Shown here: positions 44,865 to 47,737 of the stretch, in pieces
Numbering within the stretch: position 1 is the first letter of the stretch
Layout: each line of letters starts with the position of its first letter
Source: Kineococcus xinjiangensis
Lineage (GTDB): Bacteria; Actinomycetota; Actinomycetes; Actinomycetales; Kineococcaceae
DNA length: 64,000 nt
Assembly (NCBI RefSeq): GCF_002934625.1
Contig: NZ_PTJD01000003.1
Span: 62,001-126,000 of the forward strand
Reading direction: 5' to 3'
Program-made: the position numbers and the translations under genes
Notes under the pieces: model-generated
Seen by the model: the letters and a program-made list of their open reading frames with translations, nothing else
Told to the model about the DNA's origin: nothing
Database searches by the model: none

Positions 44865-45611
44865 TCAGACGTGCAGGCCGCACTCCGTCTTGGAGCTGCC
44901 GGCCCAGCGGCCCGCGCGCGGGTCCTCACCGGGCTTGACCGCCCGCGTGCAGGGGGCGCACCCGATGGACGGGTAGCCGCGCAGGGTGAGCTCGTGGCGC
45001 GGCAGGTTCCGCTCCACGATGTGCGCCTCGACGTCCTCGGCGCTCCAGCGCACCAGCGGGTTCACCTTCACGAGGAAGTTCTTCTCGTCCCACGTCACCA
45101 CGGGAGTGCCCGCCCGGGTGGGGGCCTCGTCGCGGCGCACGCCCGTGGCCCACGCGGCGTACCCGTCCAGGGCGTCGGCGAGCGGGAACACCTTGCGCAT
45201 CGAGCAGCACAGGGCGGGGTCGCGCTCGAACAGGCGCGCGCCGAACTCGGCGTCCTGCTCCGCCACCGACTGCCGCGGCAGCACGTCCTTCACGGTGATC
45301 GGCAGCGAGCGCCTCACCTGCTCGCGCATGAGCAGCGTCTCGGGGAAGTGGTAGCCGGTCTCCAGGAACAGCACGTCCACGCCGGGGCTGACCTGGGCGT
45401 AGAGGTCCAGCAGGACCGCGTCCTGCATCGAGCCGGCCACGGCGATGGAGGTGCCGAACTGCTCCACCGACCAGCGGACCACGTCGAGGGCGTCGGCGCC
45501 CTCCAGCTCCTCGCCCGCGCGGAGGGCGAGCTCGCGCCGCGCGGCGTCGTCGAGTCCGAGGGCCGCGCCGGCGGGGTGCGCGCCGGCCGCTCCGGCCACG
45601 TGTGCGGTCAT
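44865..45611 (-). CDS. cysH: Adenylylsulfate (APS) reductase, CysH type
   Basis: 248-residue reductase producing sulfite. The [4Fe-4S] ligands typical of APS-type enzymes are visible: Cys135-Cys136 and Cys218/Cys221. The catalytic Cys244 lies in the C-terminal ECGLHV. This predicts APS, not PAPS, as substrate. ATG 45611 follows GGAGGAGG and overlaps the stop of the small zinc-ribbon gene by 4 nt. It is the last gene of the sulfur operon; sulfate activation genes (cysD, cysN) are not in the window. Confidence 0.94.
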   Translation of the reverse strand: MTAHVAGAAGAHPAGAALGLDDAARRELALRAGEELEGADALDVVRWSVEQFGTSIAVAGSMQDAVLLDLYAQVSPGVDVLFLETGYHFPETLLMREQVRRSLPITVKDVLPRQSVAEQDAEFGARLFERDPALCCSMRKVFPLADALDGYAAWATGVRRDEAPTRAGTPVVTWDEKNFLVKVNPLVRWSAEDVEAHIVERNLPRHELTLRGYPSIGCAPCTRAVKPGEDPRAGRWAGSSKTECGLHV

Positions 45612-45778
45612 GCCGAACCTCCTCCGGGGATGGGGGCGACGCCCAGGATGCGGACGCTGAAGATGCGCAGGCACTCCGCGCAGCGCCACGCCGTGGGTGA
45701 GGCCTCGTCGGGGAACAGGCGCTCACCCGCGCACATCGGGCAGTGCAGCGGCGTGCTGCGTCCGCCCTCCTCGCTCAC
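45608..45778 (-). CDS. 56-residue double-CxxC (zinc-ribbon-like) protein
   Basis: A small gene fixed by its neighbours: its GTG overlaps the sulfite reductase stop by 4 nt and its TGA overlaps the cysH start by 4 nt. The peptide has LHCPMCAGERLF and WRCAECLRIFSVRIL, so Cys13/Cys16 and Cys33/Cys36 form two CxxC pairs, a probable zinc ribbon or iron-sulfur holder. I recall a small hypothetical gene at the same place in Streptomyces, but no function. Roles could be an assembly factor, an electron or sulfite carrier, or a regulator of the reductases. Confidence 0.82.
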   Translation of the reverse strand: MSEEGGRSTPLHCPMCAGERLFPDEASPTAWRCAECLRIFSVRILGVAPIPGGGSA

Positions 45779-47487
45779 CGCAGGTCCTCCTCGTCGGCGC
45801 GGGTCGCCCACTGGGCGAAGCGCTCGCCGTCGCCGCGTTGTTCCAGCCAGCGCCGGGTGAGTCGCTCGACGTAGTCGGGCAGCTCCGCGGCGGTCACCTT
45901 GTGCCCGCGCAGCTTGCGGCCGAAGCCGACGTCGAGGCCGAGCCCGCCGCCGAGGTGCACCTGGAAGCCGGGCACCTGCTCCCCGGCGTCGGTGGTGACG
46001 ATCTGCCCCTTCAGGCCGATGTCGGCGGTCTGGATGCGCGCGCACGAGTTCGGGCAGCCGTTGATGTTGACCGTCACCGGCTCGGCGAGGTCAGGGAGGC
46101 GGCGCTCCATCTCGGTGATGAGCTCCGTGGCGCGGTGCTTGGTCTCCACGATCGCGAGCTTGCAGAACTCCACGCCGGTGCAGGCCATCGTGGAGCGGCG
46201 CCACTGGCTGGTGCGGGCGGGCAGCCCGAGCTCGTCGGCGGCGGCGACGAAGGACTCCACCTGCTCGTCGGCGACGTCGAGGACCACGAGCTTCTGGTGG
46301 GCGGTGGTGCGCAGGCGCTGCGAGCCGTGCGCCTCCATCACGTCGGCCAGGCGCAGCAGCAGTTCACCGTTGACGCGGCCCACGGCCGGGGCGACGCCCA
46401 CGTAGTTGCGGCCGTCGACCTGCTTGTGGACGCCGATGTGGTCGGGGGCGTTGACCGCCTCCGGTGCGGGGCCGTCGACGAGCTTGCGGTGGAGGTACTC
46501 CTCCTCCAGGACCTGGCGGAACTTCTCGGCGCCCCAGTCGGCCACGAGGTACTTCAGCCGGGCGCGGTTGCGCAGCCGCCGGTAGCCGTAGTCGCGGAAG
46601 ATGCCCACGACGCCGGCCCACACGTCGGGCACCTCCTCCAGCGGCACCCACGCGCCCAGGCGCTGGGCGAGGTGGGCGCTCGTGGAGAGGCCGCCGCCGA
46701 CCCAGACGTCGAAGCCGGGGCCGTGCTCGGGGTGCACCGAGCCGATGAAGGCCACGTCGTTGATCTCGTGGACGACGTCCTGGCGGGGGGAGCCGGAGAC
46801 GGCGCTCTTGAACTTGCGCGGCAGGTTGGAGTACTGCGGGTCGCCCACGTAGCGGCGGTTGATCTCCTCCACCGCCCAGGTGCCGTCGAGGATCTCGTCG
46901 GCGGCGATGCCCGCGACGGGGCTGCCGAGGACGACGCGGGGGCAGTCGCCGCAGGCCTCGGTGGTGGACAGGCCCACCGACTCCAGGCGCCGCCAGATCT
47001 CGGGGACGTCCTCGACCCGGATCCAGTGGTACTGGATGTTCTGCCGGTCGGTGACGTCGGCGGTGCCGCGGGCGAAGTCCACGGAGATCTGCCCGAGGAC
47101 GCGCAGCTGCTCGGTGGTCAGCGCCCCGCCGTCGATGCGCACGCGCATCATGAAGTACTCGGCGTCCAGCTCCTCCGGCGGGATGCTGGCCGTGCGGCCG
47201 CCGTCGATGCCCTCCCGGCGCTGGGTGTACAGCCCCCACCAGCGCATCCGGCCCCGCAGGTCCTTGGGGTCGATGCTGGCGAAGCCCTGCTTGGAGTAGA
47301 CGTCCTCGATCCGCTGCCGGACGTTGAGGCCGTCGTCCTCCTGCTTGAACTCCTCGTTGCCGTTGAGGGGCGTCGTGCCGTCGACCTTCCACTGGCCCTC
47401 GGAGCGCTTGGCGGCCGCGCGGGGACCGCGGGCGCGCGGCGGGGTGGTGGCTGCGGAGTCGGCGGGGGCGGCGGGTCCGGCGTTCAT
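45775..47487 (-). CDS. sir: Ferredoxin-dependent sulfite (nitrite) reductase
   Basis: 570-residue siroheme enzyme reducing sulfite to sulfide; context with cysH favours sulfite over nitrite. The [4Fe-4S]-siroheme ligands are in ACTGVEFC and NGCPNSC. The N-terminal half has TDRQNIQYHWIRVEDVP and ACGDCPRVVLGSP. ATG 47487 is chosen, with GAGGA upstream. A GTG at 47586 is in frame but would start inside the repeat array and add a Pro/Arg-rich stretch. Confidence 0.92.
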   Translation of the reverse strand: MNAGPAAPADSAATTPPRARGPRAAAKRSEGQWKVDGTTPLNGNEEFKQEDDGLNVRQRIEDVYSKQGFASIDPKDLRGRMRWWGLYTQRREGIDGGRTASIPPEELDAEYFMMRVRIDGGALTTEQLRVLGQISVDFARGTADVTDRQNIQYHWIRVEDVPEIWRRLESVGLSTTEACGDCPRVVLGSPVAGIAADEILDGTWAVEEINRRYVGDPQYSNLPRKFKSAVSGSPRQDVVHEINDVAFIGSVHPEHGPGFDVWVGGGLSTSAHLAQRLGAWVPLEEVPDVWAGVVGIFRDYGYRRLRNRARLKYLVADWGAEKFRQVLEEEYLHRKLVDGPAPEAVNAPDHIGVHKQVDGRNYVGVAPAVGRVNGELLLRLADVMEAHGSQRLRTTAHQKLVVLDVADEQVESFVAAADELGLPARTSQWRRSTMACTGVEFCKLAIVETKHRATELITEMERRLPDLAEPVTVNINGCPNSCARIQTADIGLKGQIVTTDAGEQVPGFQVHLGGGLGLDVGFGRKLRGHKVTAAELPDYVERLTRRWLEQRGDGERFAQWATRADEEDLR

Positions 47488-47530
47488 GGCGGGGTCCTCG
47501 TCGTCGGGTGCGGGCTGCGGCGGGCGGGCG

Positions 47531-47548
47531 CCCGGGAACCGGCCCGGG
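47531..47548 (-). other. GC hairpin in the sir leader
   Basis: CCCGGG at 47531-47536 and again at 47543-47548 flank a 6-nt loop, with further G/C pairing possible outside. It lies between the 14-bp repeats and the sir ATG, where a transcription attenuator would be placed. Confidence 0.35.
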
Positions 47549-47580
47549 GAGGGGGCGCGGCGGGGCGCTCGGGAGGAGCG

Positions 47581-47650
47581 GGTCACCGGGGGGCGGTCAC
47601 CAGGGAGCGGTCACCAGGAAGTGGTCACCGGGAAGTGGTCACCGGGCAGG
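47581..47650 (-). repeat. Five tandem 14-bp repeats in the sir leader
   Basis: Units start at 47581, 47595, 47609, 47623 and 47637. Every unit begins GGTCACC on the plus strand (GGTGACC in the mRNA). The second 7 bases vary (GGGGGGC, AGGGAGC, AGGAAGT, GGGAAGT, GGGCAGG). The array begins at the stop codon of the leader peptide and ends about 95 nt before the sir ATG. It may be an operator/iteron array, an RNA anti-terminator module or a variable-number repeat. Confidence 0.85.
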
Positions 47651-47725
47651 ACACAGCGACGCGCTCTGCAGGCGGCAGAGGTCCACGTGCAGGCGCGCCA
47701 CGAGTCGCAGCGAGACCGCAGGCAC
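47639..47725 (-). CDS. Probable 28-residue cysteine-containing leader peptide of the sulfur operon
   Basis: GTG at 47725 to TGA at 47639. The peptide contains RLHVDLCRLQSASLCPAR at its C-terminus. The pattern R-x-HVDL-x-R-x-x-SA-x-x-C resembles short putative leader peptides found before sulfur genes in actinomycetes (from memory of such annotations). Two Cys codons (TGC, TGT) lie 8 codons apart near the stop. A -10-like CACCAT sits six bases before the GTG, so the transcript may be leaderless. It probably senses charged tRNA-Cys to control sir-cysH. Confidence 0.7.
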   Translation of the reverse strand: MPAVSLRLVARLHVDLCRLQSASLCPAR

Positions 47726-47731
47726 GTCCTC

Positions 47732-47737
47732 ATGGTG
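47732..47737 (-). promoter_or_regulatory. -10-like element for the leader peptide transcript
   Basis: CACCAT on the minus strand, 6 nt before the leader GTG. A good -35 is not seen. Confidence 0.35.

Follow-up and report, generated by a model that had tools for sequence, protein, structure and literature searches.

A probable cysteine-responsive leader-peptide attenuator before sir-cysH in Kineococcus xinjiangensis, and a conserved UGU codon in its actinobacterial family

Mycobacterial poly-Cys leaders, reportedly the subject of work by Canestrari et al. in 2020, are among the closest relatives of the locus considered here. Represented by the NCBIfam models NF042933 (Ms5788A) and NF042936 (Ms4527A), they contain the sequence R-R-A-VDL-C-R-V and terminal Cys codons, and are probably leaderless. 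Control of cysteine genes in M. smegmatis by such Cys-leader open reading frames (ORFs) is reported, as cited in two papers (PMC13236596, PMC9094748), the first of which describes these genes as being under translation attenuation (PMC13236596). A further model, NF042934 (cis_reg_atten, "putative leader peptide"), represents short ORFs with an R-x-H-VDL-x-R core that are located before sulfur genes in actinobacteria. A described system with no claimed sequence relation is tnaC of E. coli. In the TnaC peptide, four residues that stand at fixed distances from one another are critical; a rut site adjoins the stop codon, and this Rho site is covered when a ribosome is detained at the leader's end (PMC10941005). 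For mycobacteria, termination is reported to proceed mainly through Rho, and intrinsic terminators are reported to be rare (PMC11260477).

The DNA analysed here, called the window, is a stretch of 64,000 nt (64 kb) from the genome of Kineococcus xinjiangensis. All of the elements that an earlier note on this DNA had named upstream of sir were present on the minus strand when the sequence was checked, and its coordinates match the recomputed ones to within a few bases. In the direction of transcription, the leader region contains a -10-like box, CACCAT (47732-47737); 6 nt; an ORF of 28 codons with a GTG start (VPAVSLRLVARLHVDLCRLQSASLCPAR, followed by its stop codon; 47639-47725); an array of 14-bp direct repeats (47581-47646); a pair of CCCGGG sequences (47531-47548); a Shine-Dalgarno-like GAGGA (47495-47499); and the ATG of sir (47487). 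Thus, about 150 nt separate the leader ORF from sir-cysH. The sir gene (45775-47487, minus strand like the other window features described) encodes a ferredoxin-type sulfite reductase of 570 residues with NIR_SIR domains (Pfam PF01077, 5.8e-63; PF03460, 6.2e-34); the scores of the protein against the NCBIfam equivalogs are below cut-off. The cysH gene (44865-45611) encodes a PAPS/APS reductase (PF01507, 1.9e-42). Between the two lies an ORF of 56 residues (45608-45778), whose GTG overlaps the sir stop codon (GTGA). It carries CxxC pairs and is zinc-ribbon-like, with a weak match to PF12760 that falls below cut-off. A Cys-rich ORF in another frame of the leader region, beginning at an ATG at 47733 (47733-47614, MRTCLRSRCDSWRACTW and onward), has no family match, is not conserved, and was taken as chance. 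An Rfam search of the 64-kb window gave no match.

The window peptide contains the core R-x-H-V-D-L-x-R and a Cys after it (RLHVDLCRLQSASLC), and the core columns are invariant in alignment A1. NF042934 matches the peptide with an E value of 2.8e-5 and a score of 23.6 bits, under the curated cut-off of 27 bits. Among the other leaders linked to sir, that of Streptomyces passes (33.0), while those of Quadrisphaera (25.9) and of L105, a locus from the same bacterial family as the window (18.7), also fall under 27. Because its score lies under the cut-off, as do those of Quadrisphaera and L105, the window peptide is, as judged from sequence, a divergent homologue of NF042934 and no formal member. 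Its core, its short ORF, and its position before sulfur genes are shared with NF042934; besides the score, it differs by an extra residue between VDL and Cys and by the 14-bp array that follows. The sir orthologue of Quadrisphaera granulorum also has a homologous leader before it (VPAVLLLVARRHVDLCRQRSVAVCPASR), as do those of two genomes from the same bacterial family as the window and of 77 among 79 Streptomyces loci, where MSGTGIALVSRRHVDLGRMSSAICPAR is typical. The NF042934 match and the sir-linked homologues bear out the kinship with actinobacterial sulfur-gene leader peptides that the earlier note had seen. One could argue from the sub-threshold score that the ORF arose by chance and that sir simply has an unremarkable promoter and 5' region. 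This is extremely improbable, given the synteny with sir, the conservation of the motif across families, and the two Cys-codon rules, described below, which the window ORF obeys. Furthermore, when all six frames of the 64 kb were searched with a profile made from 150 relatives, leaving out the window's own peptide, that peptide was the sole significant match (E = 4.1e-7, with the next best at 0.23).

Leaders of this family were found in 199 of 297 sampled genomes of the class and in 0 of 14 control genomes. The genes that follow them encode sulfite reductase, PAPS reductase, APS kinase, TauD, TauE, sulfatase, luciferase-like monooxygenase, and solute-binding proteins. By its sequence, the window leader is a new homologue in an already known and widespread actinobacterial family of sulfur-gene switch peptides. 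Outside the window, the same genome contains a second leader of the family (L103, MRATGLLVELRLTARHHVDLRRCASAICCAPTPR followed by a stop codon, at G000:C8:138170-138232), located before a gene for a TauE-type sulfite exporter. Seven of the 11 other genomes of the window's bacterial family (G002, G004, G005, G007, G008, G010, and G011) lack a clear sir orthologue; in these seven, leader peptides of the family are still present, at other genes.

The start of the leader ORF is probably at or near the start of the transcript. CACCAT is a poor -10 sequence, yet its distance to the start codon agrees with that of relatives; the 6-nt spacing between box and start is also present in Q. granulorum (CAAGAT), same-family L105 (TAACGT), and Streptomyces (CACGCT). 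More generally, the sequence TANNNT lies 6 to 8 nt before the start codon in 40 of 46 members of the AVDL branch and in 29 of 83 members of the HVDL branch, compared with 7 and 11 of 46 and 1 to 3 of 83, respectively, at shifted control positions. No σ70 consensus promoter was found in the leader region. The ORF is probably leaderless, as had been suggested, and the CACCAT box 6 nt upstream would fit such an arrangement. A string close to TGCTTCCGCCAGGACCGATGG is located upstream of leaders L107, L109, L110, L111, L119, L130, L142, L144, and L145. It is perhaps a shared promoter or operator, and a short similar piece, GGGTGCTTCCG, is present in the window.

The window ORF has two Cys codons, a TGC at codon 17 (47675-47677), within HVDLC, and a TGT at codon 25 (47651-47653), three sense codons before the stop codon. 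In contrast, the mycobacterial poly-Cys leaders carry up to eight, often in a run. The earlier note had placed the two Cys codons of the window on an equal footing; among relatives, the Cys of SLCPAR is nearly invariant and encoded by the rare codon UGU, whereas the residue after VDL is variable (G, A, L, V, or C). The nearly invariant "sensor" Cys is found seven residues after VDL (index 7 in 70 of 80 HVDL-branch members), and the window and Q. granulorum, with index 8, have one spacer residue more than most. In 140 of 168 members it lies 0 to 4 codons before the stop codon. Of the 168 distinct members, which represent 31 families, 165 use TGT at this position and 3 use TGC. Elsewhere the preference is reversed: Cys codons of the downstream genes are TGC in 139 cases and TGT in 16, and other Cys codons within the same leader ORFs are TGC in 152 and TGT in 37. 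The Fisher test of 165:3 against 16:139 yields a p of about 1e-68, which is overstated and only indicative, since kin members are not independent. Where the residue after VDL is a Cys, the HVDL branch has TGC in 28 cases and TGT in none, and the AVDL branch has TGC in 39 and TGT in 2. The window, with TGC at codon 17 and TGT at codon 25, follows the rule.

The UGU rule also extends to the poly-Cys branch, in the same register, where it covers LTKRRAVDLCRVAGCCCCCCSC-like leaders with a match to the Ms5788A model (NF042933). Because it holds in these leaders, it ties the window peptide to the M. smegmatis leaders that are reported to be cysteine-responsive, as cited in PMC13236596 and PMC9094748. 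An RNA structure that would require UGU was considered and rejected; in folding predictions, the third base of the sensor codon has an ordinary pairing probability, and its partners scatter. Given that no consistent pairing partner appears in these models, a codon-level cause of the preference seems more likely than a structural one. The conserved UGU points to this codon as the place where the ribosome would pause upon cysteine shortage, and the decoding of Cys is very likely to be what the leader senses.

The peptide itself is also conserved. Among 80 distinct members of the HVDL branch, four core residues (R, D, L, and R) never change, and H and V are nearly invariant. The codons for these residues vary freely; Arg, for example, is encoded by CGC (33), CGT (21), CGG (17), CGA (7), and AGG (2). 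Since the residues are conserved while their codons are free to vary, selection, as read from this alignment, is acting on the leader peptide. This pattern, together with the fixed distance between VDL and Cys, raises the possibility that R-x-HVDL-x-R acts within the exit tunnel and is needed, with the UGU or with a small sulfur metabolite, for arrest of the ribosome, as in TnaC, where residues at fixed spacing are likewise combined with a rut site by the stop codon (PMC10941005). Such nascent-chain arrest would be compatible with the attenuation mechanism favoured below, and we regard it as possible, if somewhat the less likely case: a peptide cannot account for the preference for UGU over UGC, and the fixed distance is broken by the extra spacer residue in the window and Q. 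granulorum.

How the state of the ribosome on the leader is transmitted to sir was addressed by looking for terminators and by folding. An attenuator of the trp type, with terminator and antiterminator, was rejected, as no intrinsic terminator was found between the leader and sir. The CCCGGG inverted repeat (copies at 47548-47543 and 47536-47531), which the earlier note had taken for a hairpin, is indeed present. It has no T run after it, its hairpin competes with other pairings, and the region after the leader stop codon folds no better than shuffled sequences (z = -0.8). Another way of coupling leader to gene would be that leader or post-stop RNA masks the ribosome-binding site of sir, which a ribosome stalled at the Cys codon sets free. 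Translation attenuation is what is described for the M. smegmatis cysteine genes (PMC13236596), and suitable pairings can be drawn, between CTCCTC and GAGGA in the window and between CCTCCTCAC, by the leader stop codon, and the GTGAGG before sir in L105. However, when a stalled ribosome was modelled by folding, a weak test, the accessibility of the sir site in the window stayed at 0.54 with the block at any leader codon. In 30 Streptomyces leaders the values were 0.40 free and 0.39 stalled with no peak at the sensor Cys, and in L105 the change was slight. Masking of the site is unlikely to be the main route. When 77 Streptomyces leaders were folded jointly with alifold, no one switch stood out convincingly. 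For the earlier proposal of Cys-tRNA-responsive attenuation, this means that Cys decoding as the sensed signal is supported, while neither a terminator/antiterminator pair nor simple masking of the binding site is favoured by folding.

What does follow the leader stop codon is a bias in base composition. Over the 100 nt after the stop codon, C minus G averages 0.20 for Streptomyces sir leaders, 0.18 for the HVDL branch, and 0.13 for the AVDL branch, compared with 0.01 in 142 control upstream regions, of which 19 come from the window and the others from Streptomyces; for many of the downstream genes, the start codon was assigned by rule. In the three leader groups, the excess of C over G sets in at the leader stop codon and fades within the downstream gene, and C and G are balanced upstream. 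In the window, the stretch from the leader stop codon to the sir start (47489-47638) has 53% C and 27% G and is a candidate Rho-loading region. Its C minus G of 0.26 over 150 nt ranks among the highest 0.055% of all 150-nt segments on both strands of the window, and the 19 other upstream regions within the window reach 0.11 at most. With 27% G, this RNA is not especially G-poor, and stable structure within it is possible. Taken as a proxy for a Rho site, the C-richness suggests the involvement of Rho. Because no terminator was found, folding gave no release of the ribosome-binding site, and the excess of C over G begins at the stop codon, Rho-dependent attenuation resembling that of tnaC is favoured. 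In both systems there is a short leader with fixed critical residues and a stop codon by a known (PMC10941005) or putative Rho site, which a stalled ribosome shields or would shield. They differ in what is sensed, since TnaC responds to an excess of free tryptophan at the stop codon, whereas the window leader would most likely respond to low Cys-tRNA at a sense codon.

Together, these features make it rather likely that sir-cysH is preceded by a leader-peptide attenuator that responds to cysteine, is probably leaderless, and shares ancestry with the R-x-[HA]-VDL-x-R leaders of actinobacteria. With ample Cys-tRNA, the ribosome would pass the UGU, end the peptide three codons on, and leave. The C-rich RNA from the stop codon onward would then be exposed, and transcription would most likely be ended by Rho ahead of sir. 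Under cysteine shortage, the ribosome would stall at the UGU and cover the stop codon together with the start of the C-rich region, shutting out Rho and allowing transcription to go on into sir. Of these steps, the role of Rho as effector is put forward tentatively, with a little less than even expectation, and both the direction of the cysteine response and the leaderless start are what we infer.

The remaining element, the 14-bp array (CCYGGTGACCRCTY), is most likely not needed for this mechanism. Tandem Repeats Finder places it at 47581-47646, with a period of 14, 4.7 copies, 90% matches, no indels, and a score of 83; it is C-rich, with GTGA in each unit. The array of five repeats reported earlier is therefore real at 4.7 copies, and it begins 5 nt before the leader stop codon instead of at it. 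Its repeat score is 2.79, whereas none of 200 shuffles exceeds 1.65, which indicates that it is not due to chance. The array is unique within its genome and is absent upstream of sir in the relatives examined (Quadrisphaera, same-family, and Streptomyces sir leaders), and it was thus rejected as a conserved element. Of the 396 genomes in the order, 37 besides that of the window carry GGTGACC arrays at unrelated loci, with a period of 7 or 14 bp and different spacers (38 of 396 with the window's genome; up to two mismatches allowed). Examples are L247, L249, L250, G057:C205, and G137:C1, and the reversed pattern is nearly absent. Because such arrays arise at unrelated places in so many genomes, the GGTGACC unit, on this sequence survey, is one that tends to expand. 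A function for the array has some appeal, either as protein-binding sites or as a relay of five-codon mini-ORFs, in which a terminating ribosome could restart at each GTGA until it reaches the GTG at 47586. GTGA is present in every unit, successive mini-ORFs stay in frame thanks to the period of 14 nt, the frame of the last GTG runs into sir, and reinitiation at an overlap of stop and start codons is known for ppe2 of M. tuberculosis (PMC11260477). Yet the units have no Shine-Dalgarno sequence, the in-frame arrangement has a chance of one in three, the array is missing in relatives, and its unit is repeated at those unrelated loci. As a family feature, the relay was rejected, since GTGA is found at only 3 of 169 leader stop codons. 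A functional array is consequently quite improbable. The preferred reading is that the array is probably a lineage-specific minisatellite, expanded within a region that was already C-rich.

While the leader merely adds a homologue to a known family, the UGU rule is the valuable outcome of the analysis. The window copy scores under the cut-off, and annotation pipelines that call "putative leader peptide" would miss it. No description of the UGU rule, of the peptide motif at a fixed distance, or of the C-rich stretch from the stop codon was found in the open-access literature; the UGU rule may be described elsewhere. With these three testable features, sensing of Cys-tRNA, arrest by the nascent chain, and termination by Rho could be told apart. 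A bolder idea, which we consider rather doubtful, is that the whole VDL family is a dual sensor. Here R-x-HVDL-x-R, held at a fixed distance from an obligatory UGU, would cause an arrest that gauges Cys-tRNA by wobble decoding and shields a Rho site extending from the stop codon, and in the window's lineage this Rho region would have been lengthened by tandem duplication. If this were true, sulfur genes throughout a bacterial class would be under the control of a single device.
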